The position numbers and the translations under genes were made by a program. The notes below the pieces were generated by a model, which saw only the letters and a program-made list of their open reading frames with translations, had not been told where the DNA came from and ran no database searches. Positions 296 through 25,429 of a stretch of DNA of 25,493 nt are shown here, piece by piece (position 1 is the first letter of the stretch; the number at the start of each line of letters is the position of its first letter). The stretch spans positions 1 to 25,493 of IMG/VR virus record IMGVR_UViG_3300038619_000046; one strand, 5' to 3'. The stretch is from a virus.

Positions 296-2140
296 TTAGA
301 CCCCTTTGCCTTTCGGATTGATGCTAGTCACGCAGCGACGCTGCGCCGCGAAACTGTTCATCCAAGCCGATGGATGACCAACGAAGGTCGTTTCGGTATG
401 GCCCCCGGCCAGCGTGCGGGTCCTGGGAACAAGCCGTCCCTCGGGGACAAGGCTCGGATCATTGGCCGCCGAATTCGCGTCGGCGAAGATTTCGACCTCG
501 ATATTATCGAGCGCCGTGTCCGGGATAGCGACGAGGTCGATGTCCTTCCACCGCTTGCTGTGCTTCTTCAGCATCGTATCGAGACGGCGGCGATAGACGA
601 TCGGCGTCTCCATATCGAGCGGACCTGGAGCGCGCATACCATGCTGCTGGAACACGGCGTCGGCCCTGGCTTGGAAGTCGGCCATGGCGTTGTAGTCGTC
701 GGCGGTGACCGCCTTGGGCATACGGGCCTGGAGATCAGCAATGGCCTTGCGCACACTGTCGTCGGCGTCGGCCTTCTTCATGGCGTCGGCTTTCTTCTTT
801 TCCTCTTCTTCGGCGTCGGCCTTCTTTTTGGCCTCTTCCTTCTCTTTTTCCTCGGCGTCGGCCTTCTTCTTCTTTTCCTCTTCCGTCTCTTCGCCGGCAT
901 CCTTCTTGGCGCGGTCGGCCTTCTTGCGCTCTTCTTCCTCGACGGCATCGGCCTTCTTGCGCTCTTCGTCCATCGAGTCCATGCGCGTGGACACGCTGTC
1001 CATCCGCTTCATGCAATCGTCGAGCTTGGAGTGAAGACCCCTTAGCATCATATCCAGATGCTCGCCGGCTCCGCCACCGCCACCACCTTCCGTGGCAAGG
1101 TCGATCTGACCGTCAGCCTTTTTCTTCTTCTCGGCTTCCATCTCGGCTTCGGTCGGCATCTGCGCGTCTCCTTTGGCTTCAACCAGAACCCCGCTCGGGT
1201 CCTCGCCCTTGTCCCACACTCCGACCGGGCAGATCGCCACATGGTCGAGAAGGTGGGGGTCACCTTCGATCAAGATCACCCTGCCGTCATCAAGGTCGAC
1301 CTTGAGATTCTTGCTCTTACGCAACAAAACAGCCGGGGAAGTTGATAGCTGATGCTGGGTCATCATCTCCGCAGCTTCAGCGTCGTAGACCCTAGCTACT
1401 CCCCAGACCTCGTTGCCCTTGATGTAGGGCAACATGATCGAACCAATTACCCGGTCGGCATACTCACGCGAATCAAGCTGCGAACCTTCCGGATGTTGTA
1501 CTATAACCGGAAGTCCAGCGCATCTAGCAAGAAATTCATCGGTGAGGTAGATTTCAGGTTTCCGAAGAACAAATTCATCATCTTTGCGACGATAGGCCGT
1601 TCCGGTACCAGTGATTCGCAGCGCGAACAGCCACATATTCTCATATTGCTGCGGGGATGCAAGTTGCCCGTCCCTGACTGCCCGAGCAACATCAAGTTCA
1701 TTCCATTTTATTTTTTGCAGAGCGACGGAGCATCCAGGGTGCAAAGGAAGTGGCGGCTCGTCTATTTTTGACCATGCAAACCCTGTGTGCTCACCGTTTA
1801 GGTGGGGTTCGAAAGTGTCGGCTACACCCTGTCGGAATGTCGTGTATTCGACCATCTCAGGTGGCTGTGCGCCTGGGACAAGTGGCGCACCATCGGCCAA
1901 GGCCTCGGTCGGCATGACCGTGACTGAATGCTTGGTTCGACCACCATTTGGCAGATAGCTCGGCATGAAGCCGAGTTCTTCGATGGTCTCGCGCACCGCC
2001 GTCTCTTCTGCCGTCTCATTGCCTTCTGTGGTGCCACCAGGGAAACACCAATGCCCAGGCCAAGATGATCCCGGACCTCTCTTAAGGAACAGGGCTAGAC
2101 CATCCGTCGTTGTAAACATGATGCCGGCGGCACGGATCAT
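296..2140 (-). CDS. NUDIX hydrolase-DUF2213 fusion, probable head scaffold/maturation protein
   Basis: The protein has 614 residues. Residues 1 to about 140 form a NUDIX domain with a complete Nudix box (G36, E42, R50-E51, E54-E55, G57), so nucleotide-pyrophosphate hydrolysis is plausible. Residues about 155-330 match DUF2213 (ALRITGTGTAYRR, LARCAGLPVIVQHPEG), a family encoded between portal and capsid genes and thought to act in head assembly. Residues about 365-480 are an extremely Lys/Glu/Ala/Asp-rich coiled coil, typical of scaffolds. I chose the ATG at 2140 because it overlaps the previous stop as ATGA; a TTG two codons upstream is also open. The NUDIX fusion is the odd part. The family calls are firm, the role in assembly is inferred. 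Confidence 0.85.
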   Translation of the reverse strand: MIRAAGIMFTTTDGLALFLKRGPGSSWPGHWCFPGGTTEGNETAEETAVRETIEELGFMPSYLPNGGRTKHSVTVMPTEALADGAPLVPGAQPPEMVEYTTFRQGVADTFEPHLNGEHTGFAWSKIDEPPLPLHPGCSVALQKIKWNELDVARAVRDGQLASPQQYENMWLFALRITGTGTAYRRKDDEFVLRKPEIYLTDEFLARCAGLPVIVQHPEGSQLDSREYADRVIGSIMLPYIKGNEVWGVARVYDAEAAEMMTQHQLSTSPAVLLRKSKNLKVDLDDGRVILIEGDPHLLDHVAICPVGVWDKGEDPSGVLVEAKGDAQMPTEAEMEAEKKKKADGQIDLATEGGGGGGAGEHLDMMLRGLHSKLDDCMKRMDSVSTRMDSMDEERKKADAVEEEERKKADRAKKDAGEETEEEKKKKADAEEKEKEEAKKKADAEEEEKKKADAMKKADADDSVRKAIADLQARMPKAVTADDYNAMADFQARADAVFQQHGMRAPGPLDMETPIVYRRRLDTMLKKHSKRWKDIDLVAIPDTALDNIEVEIFADANSAANDPSLVPEGRLVPRTRTLAGGHTETTFVGHPSAWMNSFAAQRRCVTSINPKGKGV

Positions 2141-2508
2141 GGCCAAATGTTCTCAAGCAGCTTGTTGGTGCGCGCTTTCCTAGCGGCTTCCTCGACCGGC
2201 TTCTCCAGCCGCCGTAAGGCCTCCAAAGCCGCTCGCTTCTCACCGGGGCTGCCGGGGCGCTCATAAAGCGCGAGAGTCCCTAGCGCGCGTTCCATCAGGC
2301 CATCCGCCTGTTTGCAGAAATCATCAACGCGAGCGACGAGGCTGGCGATGGCTGCACTGGGATGCATCGGGTTGTCTACACCGTAGGAGTCGCCACGAGC
2401 CTTGGAGTATGCGATGGCTACCGCCTGAGCCTGCGGTTTTCCAGCCCTAACTTCCGTCGCTATGTTCCGCGACAAAACGGCCTGACTTTTCCCTGGCTCT
2501 AACGGCAC
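2137..2508 (-). CDS. Small phage protein with GKPQAQAVAIAYSKAR motif
   Basis: This 123-residue protein starts at a GTG with AGGTG nine bases upstream. Residues 1-40 carry the segment SRNIATEVRAGKPQAQAVAI, a motif I know from many small phage head-region proteins of unknown function. The remainder is helical and charged with no cysteines of note and no membrane segment. Its stop overlaps the ATG of the NUDIX-DUF2213 gene by four bases, which implies translational coupling and a related role in head assembly. The N-terminal motif begins almost at the start codon, which supports this start even though it overlaps the preceding small gene by 62 bases. Confidence 0.7.
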   Translation of the reverse strand: MPLEPGKSQAVLSRNIATEVRAGKPQAQAVAIAYSKARGDSYGVDNPMHPSAAIASLVARVDDFCKQADGLMERALGTLALYERPGSPGEKRAALEALRRLEKPVEEAARKARTNKLLENIWP

Positions 2509-2683
2509 GGCGAATCACCTGTCTTGCTCCGGCACTATTAGCATATATCGTCTGTGCGCGGCGCAGTTCGGACATCAGTGACCTAAGCTTGTGCAAGCCA
2601 TGGCACCTAGGGCAGATTTTAATTACTGAAGAGCTAGAGCGGTGTATGTTTGGTATCACGTCGGAATGAAAATCACAGGTCAC
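2447..2683 (-). CDS. Small protein with CPRCH motif, unknown function
   Basis: A GTG at 2683 overlaps the stop of the head-morphogenesis gene as GTGA and has AAGAGG ten bases upstream, so coupled translation is likely. The 78-residue product contains CDFHSD near its start and CPRCH at about residues 24-28, a possible metal-binding set, followed by an Arg/Ala-rich helix. It fills an otherwise empty 170-base gap between two good genes, but its end overlaps the next gene by 62 bases, which is unusual. A longer reading from an ATG at 2785 would lie inside the upstream gene and is less likely. No family recognised. Confidence 0.4.
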   Translation of the reverse strand: MTCDFHSDVIPNIHRSSSSVIKICPRCHGLHKLRSLMSELRRAQTIYANSAGARQVIRRAVRAREKSGRFVAEHSDGS

Positions 2684-3510
2684 GATGCTATTGCCTCTTG
2701 CGCTTCTTTCAACTTCTGCCTGCCTCGTTCGGTAATCATATCGGTCGGCAAGCTCCGCAAATGATACAAAAATATCATGTAGCATCTACAGAAAACCTCT
2801 TCCCCGACAGAGGTGATCTTGTCGTAGTATCCAGCGCGGCCGGCCTTCATTAGGCCAGCACGGAGAGCCCAGTTGCCACGCAAAACGTAAACCTCACCGT
2901 CCCGCTCCTTGTGGTCCTCGCGATAATTATAGTTTCTCTGCCGCCAATTGGAGTGCCATACGCCTGCCAAAGCGCCGCCGTCATTGGCGATGATCTCCGA
3001 TATCGATGCGACCAATTTGTGGCCTTGGTCGATGATAACGCGGCGTTCCTCGAAGGGGAGACTGGCGAGCGCCTTGCGTAGTTCCTTCTTGGTCTCGGTC
3101 TTTCTTACGGCATCGCTACCACCCGTGGGGATACTTGTGGCCCACCCTTGAAACCGCTGAATCGTGCGTTGGACCGATGCCTCACGATTGAGGGTGATGA
3201 GGTCGGCCGACGCCATCAGGCGCCGATCAAGCTCCGACCGCATCGAGTGCTTAAGCCTGTCGATCGTGAAGCGGGGGATGCCTGGGTGATATTTTACGAT
3301 TTCACCGTTGTCGACCATCCGCTTATAGATTGAGACCAAACCCTCGCGCAGCATGCGATCCATAGCACGTGGCGAGACCAACATGGCGTTGGCGGCCTCA
3401 CGGATGGCTTCGGTCCACTGTGCGACGCGCTCGGCAGAGTCGTAGCCGTGCTCGGCCAGATCATTGATTGCGTCAGTTAAGACGGAATAGAATGTGGCCT
3501 TACTCGGCAT
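2680..3510 (-). CDS. Mu F-like phage head morphogenesis (minor capsid) protein
   Basis: The protein has 276 residues. Its C-terminal part shows the pattern of the phage Mu F-like family: WHSNWRQRNYNYREDHKERD, then a Gly-containing region and a CRC motif at residues 241-243 followed by hydrophobic residues. Proteins of this family are minor head components attached near the portal and needed for capsid assembly. The N-terminal 130 residues are helical. The ATG at 3510 shares one base with the preceding stop (TGATG). It lies two genes after the portal in transcription order, the usual place for this family. A perfect 13-bp copy of the window's operator palindrome falls inside the gene at 2778-2790. 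Confidence 0.85.
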   Translation of the reverse strand: MPSKATFYSVLTDAINDLAEHGYDSAERVAQWTEAIREAANAMLVSPRAMDRMLREGLVSIYKRMVDNGEIVKYHPGIPRFTIDRLKHSMRSELDRRLMASADLITLNREASVQRTIQRFQGWATSIPTGGSDAVRKTETKKELRKALASLPFEERRVIIDQGHKLVASISEIIANDGGALAGVWHSNWRQRNYNYREDHKERDGEVYVLRGNWALRAGLMKAGRAGYYDKITSVGEEVFCRCYMIFLYHLRSLPTDMITERGRQKLKEAQEAIAS

Positions 3511-7995: not shown

Positions 7996-8024
7996 AATTT
8001 AGCGCGTAGCCGCTACATGGTCAA
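7996..8024 (-). promoter_or_regulatory. Leftward sigma70-type promoter with internal operator
   Basis: On the minus strand TTGACC (8024-8019) and TAAATT (8001-7996) are separated by 17 bases, close to the sigma70 consensus. The spacer contains the palindrome TGTAGCGGCTACG one base after the -35 box. The main rightward promoter at 17,430 has the same arrangement. Transcription would enter the micro-genes and the 7425-7775 gene. A repressor bound here would block the polymerase directly. Confidence 0.6.
8005..8017. promoter_or_regulatory. Operator-like palindrome CGTAGCCGCTACA
   Basis: This site matches TGTAG-N3-CTACA at nine of ten fixed positions. It sits between the -35 and -10 boxes of the leftward promoter and is intergenic, which favours a real operator over chance. 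Confidence 0.55.
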
Positions 8025-14096: not shown

Positions 14097-14693
14097 TCAT
14101 GGTGATTGCTCTGCCCCTGATCCGCGAGGCGCCGGGTTCAAGAAATTCTTGGTCACGGCCGCCAGCATATCGGTGAAAGGCTGATGCCAATTTGGATAGA
14201 TGCAGTGCAGAAACTCGTGAGGAATGACCTCATTGTCGTAATGGTCCACCCACTCCGCAGTGCCGAAATAGGGGGAAAACTTGATCAGCTCGGTCGGGAA
14301 CCAGACTTGACACACGTCCCCAATTTCGGATGTGCAGGCGTAGGCGTCCTTGTCGTGACAGATTTTTGGTATTTGATCCTGTGGCACGACGTGGACCAGG
14401 ATATCCAGTGGCACCATGCTCGCGGTTAGAAATGCGTTTCCAAGCTCGCGATGGTTCAGGTCCCTCGAGGAATAGTGGTAGCGGCCGACGCTAAGGCCAT
14501 AAGTAAGACCGCGATCGTAAGCGTAGCGATAGAGGCCGAAGCCGAGAAAGAGGACGAAGGAAAGCGCAATTGCTAGGAGGGGGACCCGGATGCCGGAGGT
14601 TTCTTCCTGGCCTTTTTCTTCGGGGCCTTCGACGCCAAGCCCCCCCGGTACCGGCGCATCGAATCCGCTTTCGCCTTCCGACGAGCTGCGCAT
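14097..14693 (-). CDS. Membrane-anchored putative zinc metallopeptidase (HEFLH)
   Basis: The 198-residue protein has a Gly/Glu-rich N-terminal tail, one membrane helix (about 36-54, VPLLAIALSFVLFLGFGLY) and an outer domain. The outer domain has four cysteines and the motif HEFLH at 159-163, followed by a third histidine at 170. HExxH with a downstream histidine is the zinc site of many metallopeptidases, so proteolysis outside the membrane is plausible. The ATG at 14693 has GGAG at eight bases; a GTG at 14702 is less likely. The first 121 bases overlap the preceding gene in another frame. Its substrate is unknown; host envelope or exclusion are possibilities. Confidence 0.6.
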   Translation of the reverse strand: MRSSSEGESGFDAPVPGGLGVEGPEEKGQEETSGIRVPLLAIALSFVLFLGFGLYRYAYDRGLTYGLSVGRYHYSSRDLNHRELGNAFLTASMVPLDILVHVVPQDQIPKICHDKDAYACTSEIGDVCQVWFPTELIKFSPYFGTAEWVDHYDNEVIPHEFLHCIYPNWHQPFTDMLAAVTKNFLNPAPRGSGAEQSP

Positions 14694-14959
14694 ATGGGGC
14701 ACTCCGTTGATGTAGTGGCTACTACACTATCGGCCCCATCCTTATCCGTAGCTCCTACAGAAAGCAAGCGGGCTTTTAATGCCTTTATTTCAACCCGGAG
14801 CTTTTTGACGATTTCCTCCTCGCTGGATGCGTGACGCAGGATGGCCGGCAAGAGGGAGGGTGATGCCGGTCCCCGTTCTATCTTGCCATCGACTGGCCGG
14901 GGCCGCTTCCTCCCGGCGTTGTCCTCCCGCATCTTGCGGAGATCGTCTGATTTACTCAT
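14573..14959 (-). CDS. Basic protein with ECPICAARRKAKAD motif, 128 aa
   Basis: The ATG at 14959 overlaps the preceding stop (ATGA) and follows AAGGA. The product is strongly charged: a Lys/Arg-rich N-terminus, a central helix (EEEIVKKLRVEIKALKARLL), then ECPICAARRKAKADSMRRYR and a Lys/Pro-rich tail. The CPIC pair might bind metal with a partner subunit. DNA or RNA binding is likely from charge alone. Two copies of the operator palindrome (14,711-14,722 and 14,748-14,759) lie inside this gene, upstream of the metallopeptidase start. Confidence 0.65.
   Translation of the reverse strand: MSKSDDLRKMREDNAGRKRPRPVDGKIERGPASPSLLPAILRHASSEEEIVKKLRVEIKALKARLLSVGATDKDGADSVVATTSTECPICAARRKAKADSMRRYRGGLASKAPKKKARKKPPASGSPS
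14711..14722. promoter_or_regulatory. Operator-like palindrome TGTAGTGGCTAC
   Basis: Nine of the ten fixed bases of TGTAG-N3-CTACA are present. The site lies in coding sequence about 18 bases upstream of the metallopeptidase ATG on the minus strand. No good -10/-35 pair surrounds it, so its function is uncertain. Confidence 0.35.
14748..14759. promoter_or_regulatory. Operator-like palindrome GTAGCTCCTACA
   Basis: This is a second site 36 bases from the first. On the minus strand it stands two bases after a -35-like TTGCTT, repeating the layout of the two better promoters, but the expected -10 region (TAAGGA) is poor. Confidence 0.35.
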
Positions 14960-15228
14960 TGGGGTTCCTTGACTATCGCGTCGATCCACTCATCGGCGTC
15001 GGCTAACTCAGGAAGAGGATCAAGGCAAATACGAGTCTCGTATGAATAGGCAACCTCAATGAGCTGATTGATCTTATCGAGTGCCCGTAAGTATGACCGT
15101 GCGAGTACGCAGATTTCAGAGTCCAAAGCAGCAGGAGTTGCGGCTCGCGCCAATATAGCTACCGCTAAGTTACGAGCCAAGGTAAGCTCTGGAACAAGAA
15201 GCGGTGTCATATTGTCCAGAAAAGTCAT
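14956..15228 (-). CDS. Hypothetical helical phage protein, 90 aa
   Basis: The ATG at 15228 overlaps the preceding stop as ATGA, and its own stop overlaps the next ATG in the same way. The product is almost entirely helical (LARNLAVAILARAATPAALD, YLRALDKINQLIEVAYSY) with an acidic C-terminus. No motif or family recognised. Confidence 0.65.
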   Translation of the reverse strand: MTFLDNMTPLLVPELTLARNLAVAILARAATPAALDSEICVLARSYLRALDKINQLIEVAYSYETRICLDPLPELADADEWIDAIVKEPQ

Positions 15229-16480: not shown

Positions 16481-17275
16481 CTACTTCGGCGGAGGTCCAT
16501 CCGGGATATCGCCCTCATCGACAAAGCAGAGCTGGACGAGGGGGAGGGCCGAAAATGCAGTCCCGGCCGGTAACGGTGTGCCGTCAGGACCACTGATTTC
16601 ATGGGCATTAGTCTCACGCCATCGCGCCCGCGTTTTGAGCGTGAAAAACACCGATGCCTCACGTCCCCTGCGAACCGACTGAGCAAGTTGCCCTACTGCA
16701 TCGGCGATAAGGACCTGCTCCCCGTATTCGAGCACGTCAGCATAGTGTTTTGTGAGGGTATCCACACTGATGCCAAGGCGCTTAGCCATGATCGTTTGAG
16801 GGGCACCTGATATGGCGAAAGCCTCGACCATGAGCCGTGTGGTTTCGGTTGGAACGTGCTGTGGTCTCCCCCTCCCCCTGGCTTCAATCTTTATAGACGC
16901 GACTAATTCATCCGTCTTGACTTGCTGTGGAACCAGAAGGGCTTCGAGCTTTGCCCTACGATCCATTAATTTTAACATGGTGTCGATGGAATGGCTCTCG
17001 CCTTGTGCCGCATTGGCATAGGCGGTTGTCATCATCTGATTGACCCGCTGGAGATCGAGGAGGATGGCTTCCTTGGCTGGTTCGCGGTAAAGCGCGTTCA
17101 ATCCCTTGGTGACGAGTTCGGTGGCGTATTCGACCGTAATCTTGCGACCGACATTCTCGGTATCAGCCGACATTGCCTCGGCGATCTGGATGTAGTCGTG
17201 ACCTTGGAGGCGATAGTCGATCGCCATCGAGATGAGGTCGATCTCGGGGATTTCAGGTGTCTTTTTCTTCGGCAT
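16481..17275 (-). CDS. Double-HTH DNA-binding protein, probable terminase small subunit
   Basis: The 264-residue protein has a first helix-turn-helix-like segment near 27-46 (DYIQIAEAMSADTENVGRKI) and a helical region ending in IDTMLKLMDRRAKLEAL. A second clear helix-turn-helix lies at about 157-180 (GAPQTIMAKRLGISVDTLTK), followed by KTRARWRETNAHEISGPDG. The second half is a common prophage protein usually called terminase-small-like. Being first in the late operon fits a packaging-site recognition role, but regulation is an alternative. The ATG at 17275 has only a weak ribosome-binding site and follows a hairpin with a T-tract. Confidence 0.55.
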   Translation of the reverse strand: MPKKKTPEIPEIDLISMAIDYRLQGHDYIQIAEAMSADTENVGRKITVEYATELVTKGLNALYREPAKEAILLDLQRVNQMMTTAYANAAQGESHSIDTMLKLMDRRAKLEALLVPQQVKTDELVASIKIEARGRGRPQHVPTETTRLMVEAFAISGAPQTIMAKRLGISVDTLTKHYADVLEYGEQVLIADAVGQLAQSVRRGREASVFFTLKTRARWRETNAHEISGPDGTPLPAGTAFSALPLVQLCFVDEGDIPDGPPPK

Positions 17276-17286
17276 TGACTACGGCA

Positions 17287-17322
17287 CCTACAAACAAAAG
17301 GGACCGGCGATTTGCCGGTCCC
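17287..17322 (-). terminator. Hairpin plus T-tract in the leader of the terminase-small-like gene
   Basis: Perfect 9-bp arms GGGACCGGC (17300-17308) and GCCGGTCCC (17314-17322) enclose a 5-base loop. On the minus strand the hairpin is followed by TTTTGTTT. This is the form of an intrinsic terminator for leftward transcription, ending 12 bases before the late gene start. It would stop any transcript begun upstream unless antitermination occurs. On the plus strand no T-run follows. Confidence 0.65.
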
Positions 17323-17354
17323 CGATAGTACGATATCTCAGTGGCATTAGTCCA

Positions 17355-17365
17355 GTAGAAGCTAC
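17355..17365. promoter_or_regulatory. Operator-like palindrome GTAGAAGCTAC
   Basis: It keeps the eight core bases GTAG-N3-CTAC but not the outer T/A. On the minus strand it stands directly upstream of a possible promoter (TGGACT at 17354-17349, TACTAT at 17330-17325, spacing 18) that would drive the late operon. Confidence 0.4.
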
Positions 17366-17429
17366 GGCGTCTTCGTTTTGCCTTTCCCGGCCTTCCGCTT
17401 CACCCCTATTTTCAATGATTTAAAATGAC

Positions 17430-17457
17430 TTGACATGTAGTCTCTACATTATATTAT
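17430..17457 (+). promoter_or_regulatory. Strong rightward early promoter overlapped by operators
   Basis: TTGACA (17430-17435) and TATTAT (17452-17457) are separated by 16 bases, almost the sigma70 consensus. One operator fills the spacer and another covers the -10 edge and the expected start near 17464. It should drive the plus-strand genes from 17,550. A perfect TATAAT on the minus strand (17453-17448) also suggests a weak leftward start, although its -35 is poor. Confidence 0.75.
17436..17448. promoter_or_regulatory. Operator TGTAGTCTCTACA (left of the pair)
   Basis: This is a perfect 13-bp palindrome that begins at the base following the -35 box. Its centre lies 21 bases, two helical turns, from the next site, so two dimers could bind the same face of the helix cooperatively. 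Confidence 0.7.
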
Positions 17458-17469
17458 GTAGCCACTACA
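17457..17469. promoter_or_regulatory. Operator TGTAGCCACTACA (right of the pair)
   Basis: This second perfect palindrome starts at the last base of the -10 box and covers the expected transcription start. Binding here would exclude RNA polymerase. Confidence 0.7.
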
Positions 17470-17549
17470 CCAGCAGGTCATTTAGGTGGCACCGTCTATC
17501 TGTGCGAGTGACCCTCGAACTGGCCTGTGAGGCCCAAACGGAGCACGAC

Positions 17550-17840
17550 ATGACCAAAACCCTTTATTTCAACGGACTGACGGAATTGAACCCCAAGAGC
17601 ATCCATATGGACGGCCGCCAACTGCTCGGGGAGCCGATTGGCTATGAGCCGGTCTATCTTCAGGGAGAAGGCTGGAAACATAATTACCTGCCTGCCAATC
17701 GCGTAGTCCGGCTGAAATCGAACCCCTCGCGCCACGAATGTGATGCTCGCTGCATCAACGCCTCAGGTCGCACGATGAATTGTGAATGCGCCTGCGGCGG
17801 CAAGAACCACGGCAAGGGCCGGTTCAACTGTGCAGCGTAA
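17550..17840 (+). CDS. Early Cys-rich phage protein with CxCxCGGxNHG motif
   Basis: The ATG at 17550 follows CGGAG and is the first good start after the early promoter. The 96-residue product ends in a Cys-rich block with HECDARCINASG, NCECACGGKNHGKG and a final Cys. That arrangement of C, H and G residues is conserved in uncharacterised phage proteins I recall and likely binds zinc. The N-terminal part is polar and beta-like. As first gene of the early operon it could be a regulator or host-takeover protein, which is inference from position. Confidence 0.7.
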   Translation: MTKTLYFNGLTELNPKSIHMDGRQLLGEPIGYEPVYLQGEGWKHNYLPANRVVRLKSNPSRHECDARCINASGRTMNCECACGGKNHGKGRFNCAA

Positions 17841-18066: not shown

Positions 18067-18540
18067 ATGTCAAAAAGCATGACGAAGAAACAGAAATTCT
18101 TAGCCGCGAGCGGGCAATTGAGCGCGCTGCTGTCGGCGGGCTACAGCGCGAGCGCGCTGCGGTCGGCTGGCTACAGCGCGAGCGAATTGGAAGATTTTCT
18201 CGCCGATGTCCCGCTCGTTGAGCGGCCGTACTCACGGCTCTGGGCCGATCTCAAGGCCAAGGCTCGTGTTCACAAGCAATCAACGTGGGGACCGGACACG
18301 GCGATTGCCGACGACAATGTATGCGGGACGCCGATGTGCACGGCTGGCCATCTTGTTCAGATGGCAGGCGCTGCCGGCTACGCACTGCGCCTGAAATACG
18401 GCTTGTCCGGCGCAGCGACCCTCATCCACATGAAGGCGCACCTGGACGAGCCGCCGCAAAACTTCGACTCGATCCCCCAGGATTGGGCGCTCGCGTACAT
18501 CGAAATGATGGCTGCGAAGGAAGCCAGCCAAAGCCGCTAG
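18067..18540 (+). CDS. Early protein with SAGYSASxL repeats, 157 aa
   Basis: The ATG at 18067 follows GAGGAA. After a basic start (MSKSMTKKQKFLAASGQ) the protein has a tandem 10-residue repeat, SALLSAGYSA SALRSAGYSA, then SELEDF. It continues with a domain containing NVCGTPMCTAGHLVQMAG and IPQDWALAYIEMMAAKE. AGYS repeats of this type occur in phage and bacterial proteins of unknown role. The C-terminal domain is a conserved but uncharacterised phage module. The repeat is a 30-bp DNA duplication with two mismatches. Confidence 0.7.
   Translation: MSKSMTKKQKFLAASGQLSALLSAGYSASALRSAGYSASELEDFLADVPLVERPYSRLWADLKAKARVHKQSTWGPDTAIADDNVCGTPMCTAGHLVQMAGAAGYALRLKYGLSGAATLIHMKAHLDEPPQNFDSIPQDWALAYIEMMAAKEASQSR
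18121..18180 (+). repeat. 30-bp tandem duplication, 28/30 identical
   Basis: Units 18121-18150 and 18151-18180 differ at two positions only and keep the reading frame, encoding two 10-residue SAGYSA repeats. Confidence 0.85.
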
Positions 18541-20110: not shown

Positions 20111-20406
20111 AAAATCTGGTCGCCGACCGCGCGCATGCGCAAGGCTTGTATTTTCAGTTCTATGATTTCGGCGCATACGATGGCGAAATCTATGATTTCG
20201 GCGCATACGATGGCGAAACCGAGCACCACATCATGTGCACTTTTTATTGTCTTCGCGACGGCCAATTGAACATTGGCCAGAGTGAGCTTGTTCTGGCGAA
20301 CCAATGGCCAGCCTACCGCGCACAAATCGAACGCGATGGCTGGACGCATCGCGAACGTCAACACCAATATCCACCGAGAGGCCACAATGGAAATCAAAGT
20401 CCTTGA
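20104..20406 (+). CDS. Early protein with duplicated YDFGAYDGE segment, 100 aa
   Basis: The ATG at 20104 lies inside the end of the preceding gene. After a basic start the protein contains YDFGAYDGEI twice in tandem, caused by an exact 30-bp duplication, followed by EHHIMCTFYCLRDGQLNIG. No family recognised. The last 20 bases overlap the next gene. The duplication being exact suggests it is recent. Confidence 0.55.
   Translation: MVKNLVADRAHAQGLYFQFYDFGAYDGEIYDFGAYDGETEHHIMCTFYCLRDGQLNIGQSELVLANQWPAYRAQIERDGWTHRERQHQYPPRGHNGNQSP
20159..20218 (+). repeat. Exact 30-bp tandem duplication
   Basis: Units 20159-20188 and 20189-20218 are identical and in frame. Confidence 0.95.
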
Positions 20407-21817: not shown

Positions 21818-22630
21818 TTAAGCCACAACCTGGCGCTTTCCGCGTTTCGCGGCTGGTAACCTGTCAAGGCGCCGTAGCAGCGTCGGTGAGACCAACACCC
21901 CTCCAGAATAGACCGGCTCGATCCCCAAGTTCTTATACTCAGCCAAGACCGCACGCTCGGCCGCGCTGCGGCTCCGTGCGTCCATAGCACTGCGTGCCCG
22001 ATTGATACGTCGAGCCTCGATCGTACCGCCGATGCCACGGCTCTCGTCCATAACTCTCGTGCGCAGTTCATCGGAGAACGTCCTCAACTTGGCTTGAACT
22101 CGATCCTTGATCTCCTTGGACGGCTCAGCCCCATCGAATGGCGCATTTAATGCCTCGGTGATCAGGTGATTTTCCGTGACACAATCCGCCATGACCGATC
22201 GGCATAGCACCCGGACTTGGATTGTAGTTGGTCGATATGTCGTCGAAACATCGATGGCCGTCCCAGCCTTGATCTTGGCGCAGGCAATGCACACCGCCCA
22301 AGTCGGAACGGCGGCAAGTTCGTCGAGATACTTTCCGACAACTGCCGCCATTTCGTTCACGGTCTGAGGACGCGGATCGTAGCAACCGAGCATGTCGGCG
22401 ATGTAGGCGCCCTTAAGGTTTGGGCTGTTGTCCTTGAGCGCCCTTTGCAGAACCACGGCTCGCGCCGCCAGCGTCGAGCGGACTTCGGTGGGAAGAGGAT
22501 ATCGTACACGCAGCACGCCGGTTGTAGTACGGAAGCATTTGTTGCTTGCCATATCCAAAGCTATGGCTGCCGTCCGGTCATATCCCGGAGCGTCTAGATT
22601 ATATTTTACCTTAGCTACTTCCGTTCCCAT
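21818..22630 (-). CDS. Hypothetical protein next to replication gene, 270 aa
   Basis: The ATG at 22630 lies 16 bases inside the end of the replication-like gene. The protein is soluble and mostly helical, with YDPRPQTVNEMAAVVGKYLD and VPTWAVCIACAKIKAGTAID in the first half and an Arg-rich C-terminus (EARRINRARSAMDARSRSAA). The first motif recalls phage proteins encoded beside helicase or primase genes. A replication-accessory role is inferred from this coupling only. It is the last gene of the leftward operon and faces the end of the rightward one. Confidence 0.65.
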   Translation of the reverse strand: MGTEVAKVKYNLDAPGYDRTAAIALDMASNKCFRTTTGVLRVRYPLPTEVRSTLAARAVVLQRALKDNSPNLKGAYIADMLGCYDPRPQTVNEMAAVVGKYLDELAAVPTWAVCIACAKIKAGTAIDVSTTYRPTTIQVRVLCRSVMADCVTENHLITEALNAPFDGAEPSKEIKDRVQAKLRTFSDELRTRVMDESRGIGGTIEARRINRARSAMDARSRSAAERAVLAEYKNLGIEPVYSGGVLVSPTLLRRLDRLPAAKRGKRQVVA

Positions 22631-22974
22631 GACCCAGCGAGCCTGCGTGCGAAATCCATGTAGCTGCTACCGCAATTCGATTGATTTGTATAGTCCGATT
22701 CCCAGCGGTGCTGATTTAGCCATGTGACCGCCATTGCGGTGAATTTTGGATTCTCACCTTCTCGGGTGGCGGCATAGGCGATCATGCTGCTGATAATGAT
22801 TTCCGGGTCTATGTGTTCCCGCTCGACTAAACGGGTAAATTTCAAAAGGGCTGGGCGCTTGGGATTATCGTGTGGAGCGCGCTTTGGCGTCACATCCCAA
22901 AATCTCTCGAATAGTTGCTGCGTTGATGGCCTTGAACAAACGACTTTGCCGAACATGACCAACTGAACTGTCAC
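22615..22974 (-). CDS. Replication-organiser-like protein (FxxFW domain)
   Basis: I chose the GTG at 22974 because GGAGG stands six to seven bases before it, giving 119 residues. The sequence FERFWDVTPKRAPHDNPKRP, then LKFTRLVEREHIDPEIIISS and FTAMAVTWLNQHRWE, matches the C-terminal domain of phage replication initiation or helicase-loading proteins. These contact the replicative helicase. The usual N-terminal DNA-binding domain is absent, so it may work with another protein or be a short variant. An operator-like site lies in the end of the gene (22,659-22,670). Confidence 0.6.
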   Translation of the reverse strand: MTVQLVMFGKVVCSRPSTQQLFERFWDVTPKRAPHDNPKRPALLKFTRLVEREHIDPEIIISSMIAYAATREGENPKFTAMAVTWLNQHRWESDYTNQSNCGSSYMDFARRLAGSWERK

Positions 22975-23021
22975 GAAATCCCTCCGCAATCCTCGTTGAA
23001 CAGGCCGCTCATGCGGCCCAA

Positions 23022-23552
23022 TTACGCCGCCGGCACGTGCTCGAGCCACTTCGGCGCGATGAAGTAGATGTCGGGTTCGAAGTCGACTTCCACCCCTATT
23101 ACCCCGTCGGCCGGCTTGAACGACACGACCTTCCCACAAGCGTTCGAGAGCGAATTAGCTAGCAACCAGTTTGGTCTGACGAGCACCCGATCCCCGACGA
23201 CGAAGCCGGCGAAGCTCTGACAGCGCCATGCTTCCTCGTTCTTAGCCTGCCGCGCGGCGGCACCTTCGTCGGCGCCCCTCGACGCGATCTCTCCGCCACA
23301 CGCGCCATACCCGCAGATATCAATCCATGAATCCAGGTGGGCCGGATCGTTCTCGAGCCGAGCAATCTTGACGAGGCAAAGCATCAGCGCCACGTCGCCG
23401 CCGGTCATCGGGGCGTTAGACTCGACCCGATTCGCCAGATGCGTGTTCCAAAGCCGCGCGATCCTTTCAAAGTTGTCTTCAGGCGTCCCGTATGCGGTGC
23501 TGCGGACCTTTACCGCCTCCGCCGCTTGGTTCAACACTTCCGCGCGCAGCAT
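23022..23552 (-). CDS. DUF6378-like protein with C-terminal SH3/KOW-like extension
   Basis: The ATG at 23552 has a strong GGAGGGG. Residues 1 to about 95 show the DUF6378 pattern: STAYGTPEDNFERIARLWNT, MTGGDVALMLCLVKIARLEN and LDSWIDICGYGACGGE, a short helical phage domain with conserved acidic residues. After a linker, residues about 117-176 (FVVGDRVLVRPNWL ... VIGVEVDFEPDIYFIAPKWL) look like an SH3/KOW-like barrel. The combination suggests a nucleotide- or nucleic-acid-linked function, but the biochemical role of DUF6378 is unknown to me. Confidence 0.75.
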   Translation of the reverse strand: MLRAEVLNQAAEAVKVRSTAYGTPEDNFERIARLWNTHLANRVESNAPMTGGDVALMLCLVKIARLENDPAHLDSWIDICGYGACGGEIASRGADEGAAARQAKNEEAWRCQSFAGFVVGDRVLVRPNWLLANSLSNACGKVVSFKPADGVIGVEVDFEPDIYFIAPKWLEHVPAA

Positions 23553-25194: not shown

Positions 25195-25222
25195 TTGACG
25201 GCGGAACACAAAACGCTATTAT
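25195..25222 (+). promoter_or_regulatory. Promoter of the small RNA unit
   Basis: TTGACG (25195-25200) and TATTAT (25217-25222) are 16 bases apart, matching sigma70 well. The expected start is near 25229, only about 80 bases before a strong terminator. Confidence 0.65.
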
Positions 25223-25228
25223 TCGCCG

Positions 25229-25308
25229 TCCCCGGATCGGATCACGCCCTCAAGCCAATCCGATCTAAGCCCGGTGCGGAAATCACTCCCCCGCACCGGG
25301 CATTTTTA
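25229..25308 (+). ncRNA. Candidate phage small RNA, about 80 nt
   Basis: Between the promoter and the terminator the transcript would form a first stem GATCGGAT/ATCCGATC (25235-25242 with 25258-25265, 15-base loop) and end in the terminator hairpin. There is no start codon with a ribosome-binding site in the transcript. This compact layout is typical of small regulatory RNAs. A leader/attenuator for a gene beyond the right edge is an alternative. Start and end are estimates. Confidence 0.55.
25269..25307 (+). terminator. Strong rho-independent terminator
   Basis: Perfect 11-bp arms GCCCGGTGCGG (25269-25279) and CCGCACCGGGC (25291-25301) are followed by ATTTTT and ATTTC. This is the best terminator in the window. 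Confidence 0.9.
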
Positions 25309-25429
25309 TTTCTAGGCTGGATTCGATGCCCCGGTCAAGCGCTAGGACTAGTATTGTTGATGGCGCGGGACACTAGCTAATGGGCAGAGTACGCAATGTG
25401 CGCTATGGCTGGGTTCCAGCACGCTCGGC

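Follow-up and report, generated by a model that had tools for sequence, protein, structure and literature searches.

Two perfect palindromes on a near-consensus promoter raise the question whether the divergent intergenic region at 17276-17549 is a local switch or part of a wider regulatory system. The region separates a leftward from a rightward gene block in a 25.5-kb linear viral contig, the window of this analysis, which is probably incomplete. The first leftward gene (16481-17275, minus strand) is terS-like (terminase small subunit) with an HTH in its C-terminal half, a call based on weak profile matches and on homologues close to terL in three phages; its predicted structure was of low confidence (pLDDT 48) and was left unused. 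The leftward block continues with terL, portal, MuF-like and capsid-side genes. The first rightward gene (17550-17840, plus strand) has a GGAG ribosome-binding site, encodes a Cys-rich protein of 96 aa and opens a block of small genes without assigned function. In phage lambda, several phased operators lie over a promoter in a divergent region (OR/OL), and a control region of this type had been the original prediction. Eight scattered copies of the palindrome, almost absent from related phages, make it probable that these are sites of one phage-wide regulator rather than of a lambda-style local switch.

Promoters and palindromes of the divergent region

The rightward promoter is of the sigma-70 type, TTGACA-16-TATTAT (17430-17457, plus strand), with the -35 box at 17430-17435, a spacer of 16 bp, the -10 box at 17452-17457 and a transcription start expected at about 17464. 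It was the only match of at least 11/12 on both strands of the 25.5-kb window, for an expectation of 0.25. Operator O1, TGTAGTCTCTACA (17436-17448, centre 17442), lies inside the promoter spacer, and its arms can be extended to ATGTAG/CTACAT at 17435-17449. Operator O2, TGTAGCCACTACA (17457-17469, centre 17463), covers the expected start. Both are perfect TGTAG-N3-CTACA palindromes (TGTAGNNNCTACA) with centres 21 bp, or two turns, apart. The promoter, the palindromes and their phasing agree with the initial description. Only three perfect 10/10 palindromes are present in the window, two of them on the sole 11/12 promoter. A third family member, AGTAGAAGCTACG (17354-17366, centre 17360), lies 82 and 103 bp from the centres of O1 and O2, respectively. 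It is weaker, the core GTAG-N3-CTAC being perfect and the outer base pair not, yet it belongs to the same palindrome family.

The leftward side was less well defined. The minus-strand TATAAT reported to overlap the palindromes is indeed present at 17453-17448, without a matching -35 box; a weak and doubtful candidate promoter on the minus strand (17448-17481) spans this TATAAT and the sole minus-strand match of the promoter scan in the region, ATGACC-17-CATAAT at 17481-17453 (9/12). The leftward promoter suspected beside the third site was not recovered: the promoter scan gave no leftward match of at least 9/12 next to it. The frame at 17436-17362 proposed to encode a basic leader peptide of 24 residues exists (MSSHFKSLKIGVKRKAGKGKTKTP); it is of ordinary length and lacks a ribosome-binding site, and the peptide is unsupported. 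A strong intrinsic terminator for leftward transcription, absent from the original prediction, was found at 17299-17323 (minus strand; stem of ten pairs, eight of them G-C, followed by TTTTGTTTGT); it separates the proposed leftward promoter from the terS-like gene. An early/late division is plausible in view of the leftward gene order, with terS first and terL, portal and capsid genes after it; against it stands this terminator in front of terS. A leftward RNA of some 150 nt (17299-17445, minus strand), terminated just before terS, may be formed. Either leftward transcription would yield this short product, or terS expression would need antitermination, for which lambda pR' is a precedent. 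Rfam and tRNA searches gave no match.

A dispersed palindrome family

The core GTAGNNNCTAC occurs eight times in the window (2779, 8006, 14712, 14748, 17355, 17437, 17458 and 22660), spanning 20 kb of the contig and including five sites beyond those initially described. The perfect copy TGTAGCATCTACA (2778-2790) lies within the MuF-like gene (2680-3510), where it uses the rare Arg codon AGA, and CGTAGCCGCTACA (8005-8017) is outside the called genes. TGTAGTGGCTACT (14711-14723) lies within the ORF 14573-14989, its centre 15 nt upstream of a possible start of the ORF 14097-14702; CGTAGCTCCTACA (14747-14759) follows at a distance of 36 bp, 51 nt upstream of the gene start. TGTAGCTGCTACC (22659-22671) is located within the end of the ORF 22615-23139, its centre 35 nt upstream of the start of the ORF 21818-22630. 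Four of the eight sites are inside genes, the remainder outside called genes or intergenic, with gene calls based on our own reading of the ORFs. Some outlying sites are upstream of gene starts and others far from any start. Gene density is high, so closeness to a start is uninformative, and the outlying copies are therefore called members of a genome-wide set and given no individual roles.

The frequency of the motif was far above expectation. Dinucleotide shuffles of the window gave 0.07 copies of GTAGNNNCTAC on average, and no shuffle reached the observed eight. The longer form TGTAGNNNCTACA likewise exceeded chance, being present seven times with at most one mismatch versus 0.23 expected. 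The motif had been defined from the first pair, and its enrichment was then examined in the remainder of the contig; hence the test is not circular. Among spacers of 0 to 11 bp only the 3-bp spacer was enriched. Of the 5376 gapped 4-bp palindromes counted in the window, GTAGNNNCTAC had the highest count, although the same arm letters in other orders had no occurrence there. Synonymous codon shuffling reduced the four genic sites to 0.18, and none of 2000 trials reached four (the first rightward gene was entered from 17551 instead of 17550, which touches no site). The four genic sites fall in two different reading frames, which together with the excess over synonymous shuffling indicates selection on the DNA and not on the peptide.

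Related phages carry the motif rarely. In 62 related phage contigs (740 kb), found mostly via the portal protein, the rate was about 0.03 per 25.5 kb, and 23 whole related records held two sites in total. The portal search itself yielded 59 relatives with approximately 50-60 % identity; searches with terS, terL and the ORFs 18067 and 21818 revealed no relatives or distant ones only, and no close relative was obtained. KU052037, a portal relative carrying toxin genes, was left out of the comparison. Taken together, the shuffles, the relatives and the codon shuffling establish that the palindrome family is real, resides on the DNA level and is specific to this phage.

Tandem and promoter forms of the motif were encountered elsewhere in unrelated settings only. 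The tandem operator pattern had seven matches in the viral collection, and those examined were repeats in coding sequence, proline-rich in most cases (PVAPTPV or similar). TTGACATGTAGNNNCTACA matched a single unrelated 172-kb phage, and a relaxed pair with the -10 bases retrieved a tail-gene contig and a Chloroflexi repeat whose setting is non-homologous. The collections searched contained no homologous promoter carrying this operator pair, and a plasmid search with the region gave no match.

A proposed phage-wide regulator and its alternatives

We favour, with moderate confidence, the reading that a single dimeric, phage-specific DNA-binding protein uses the sites as its operators, with the pair repressing the rightward promoter and the others forming a genome-wide set. 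TGTAG-N3-CTACA, with the core GTAG-N3-CTAC and a weaker preference for TGTAGCNGCTACA, would be the putative recognition sequence of this protein on its own genome. Two dimers bound at 17436-17469 would sit two turns apart on one helical face, one over the promoter spacer (about -22) and the other over the start point (+1). This would shut off the rightward promoter and also occlude the overlapping weak leftward promoter, if there is any. From the placement we infer cooperative repression by a dimer, which fits two copies two turns apart on the strongest promoter. The other six sites, outlying members of the set close to gene starts or within genes, may serve as auxiliary operators. Five of the eight sites lack a recognisable adjoining promoter, and a block of initiation at a known promoter therefore cannot explain how most of the set would act.

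As had been noted before, no recognisable repressor gene adjoins the operators, which are flanked by the terS-like gene and the gene for the Cys-rich protein. Within the window, an incomplete contig, we detected no XRE, KorB or ParB-N proteins, no classical repressor by Pfam and no convincing regulator by Pfam or PHROGs. The gene for the binding protein probably lies in the portion of the genome that the contig lacks. Since the binder was unrecognisable in the incomplete contig, it could be an immunity repressor, a KorB/ParB-type protein or a lytic regulator.

The nearest published case is Corndog, a cluster O mycobacteriophage with 34 copies of the repeat TGTTCGG-N3-CCGAACA, some of them within genes, whose binder and function are unexplained (PMC4351075). 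Both sets are palindromes with a variable 3-bp spacer, scattered, partly intergenic and partly genic; the Corndog repeats are absent from other phages and were read as sites of a dimeric protein (PMC4351075), and the present set likewise repeats one palindrome across the genome far above chance, with related phages (0.03 per 25.5 kb) and public genomes lacking it or carrying it rarely. In contrast to the 7-bp arms of Corndog and its 34 copies mostly off promoters, the present arms are 4-5 bp long, there are eight copies in 25 kb, and two of them coincide exactly with the best promoter, at a spacing of 21 bp. The set is of the same kind as the Corndog-type repeats, known but unexplained and mostly off promoters, while its two perfect members on the best promoter make a regulatory role directly testable. 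Scattered repressor sites are also familiar from temperate phages, e.g., the conserved inverted repeats of phiC31 and the C1 operators of P1; sequences and repressors differ from the present case.

Several other explanations were considered. The sites might belong to a palindromic stoperator-like or KorB/ParB-like system, in which a clamp or roadblock protein loaded at the scattered sites would silence or organise the whole genome, with the promoter pair as one station among others. We consider this unlikely, although most sites are away from promoters and half of them inside genes. The operators and stoperators of L5 (cluster A) are 13-bp sites across a phage genome as well, some in promoters and most not, but they lack symmetry, follow the direction of transcription and are bound by a protein monomer (PMC9283540), whereas the present sites are symmetric palindromes. 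The KorB operators of plasmid RK2 are 13-bp palindromes near and far from promoters (PMC2680271, PMC11790492), share the architecture of short arms with a 3-bp centre, TTTAGC(C/G)GCTAAA (PMC2680271), and exert their effect over distances between 4 bp and more than 1 kb (PMC11790492). The symmetrised motif TGTAGCNGCTACA differs from the KorB operator by one change per six-base half-site, a likeness that is weak evidence and a lead, not a test. However, RK2 is a plasmid with KorA partner sites, and neither the window, an incomplete contig, nor 26 related records contained a KorB-family protein; one ParB-N protein was present in those 26. In a related reading, a phage-encoded dimeric or clamp-type protein would load at the scattered 13-bp palindromes, also in structural genes, and silence or organise the whole genome at a distance, its start site being the pair near the promoter. 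We regard this reading as rather improbable; if true, it would be a symmetric counterpart of the stoperators and provide a functional handle on the Corndog-type repeats.

The early/late switch of the original prediction, a three-operator region with a CI/Cro pair and divergent promoters, draws on the divergent genes, the two phased operators on a strong promoter, the third site 82 bp off, and the cI/cro genes of some temperate structural relatives. It fails on the adjacency of a repressor and on the confinement of the operators to the control region: neither flanking gene is a repressor or cI/cro, and the sites spread over 20 kb. In addition, the leftward promoter is a weak one and terS lies behind a strong terminator. 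Such a switch has a low probability. Recruitment of host-regulator sites by the phage has a slimmer chance. The motif has the ordinary size of an operator for a bacterial dimeric repressor, but genic sites are unusual for a host regulon, the region had no plasmid match, and the operator pair had a single match in the genome collection, the non-homologous Chloroflexi repeat, which is a weak test. Chance or a coding artefact such as protein repeats is already refuted for the whole family. Proline-rich PVAPTPV-type repeats do give the pattern in other contigs, and an A+T-rich phage has four coding matches, yet the sites of the window occur in two frames and outside genes, against expectations of 0.18 (synonymous), 0.07 (dinucleotide) and 0.03 (relatives). 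Single outlying sites could be due to chance.

Further features of the contig and a relative

Additional observations concern other parts of the window. At 25195-25320 (plus strand), a 10/12 promoter, TTGACG-16-TATTAT (25195-25222), is followed by a hairpin of nine pairs and a strong terminator (GCCCGGTGCGG...CCGCACCGGGC ATTTTTATTT). With a folding z-score of -3.7 and no convincing gene around, this is a candidate small RNA; a search of the phage collection gave no homologue. Two 30-bp in-frame tandem duplications were present in small rightward genes (18120-18184 and 20159-20218, plus strand), and the 100 % identity of the two copies at 20159-20218 suggests a recent duplication. A de novo palindrome scan of the relatives showed that the related contig L053 carries seven copies of GCAATYRATTGC (4039, 5967, 9611, 9887, 12527, 15179 and 20413), each followed by G and C/T and all in the same orientation. 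Five of the seven read QLIA or QSIA in one long frame, so that the repetition may lie at the protein level or reflect a DNA motif with a fixed orientation. The large ORF 296-2146 (minus strand), within the head gene cluster, combines a NUDIX-like N-terminal part with a charged, K/E/A-rich repeat region, and the related phage PdC23 has an annotated NUDIX gene in the equivalent position.
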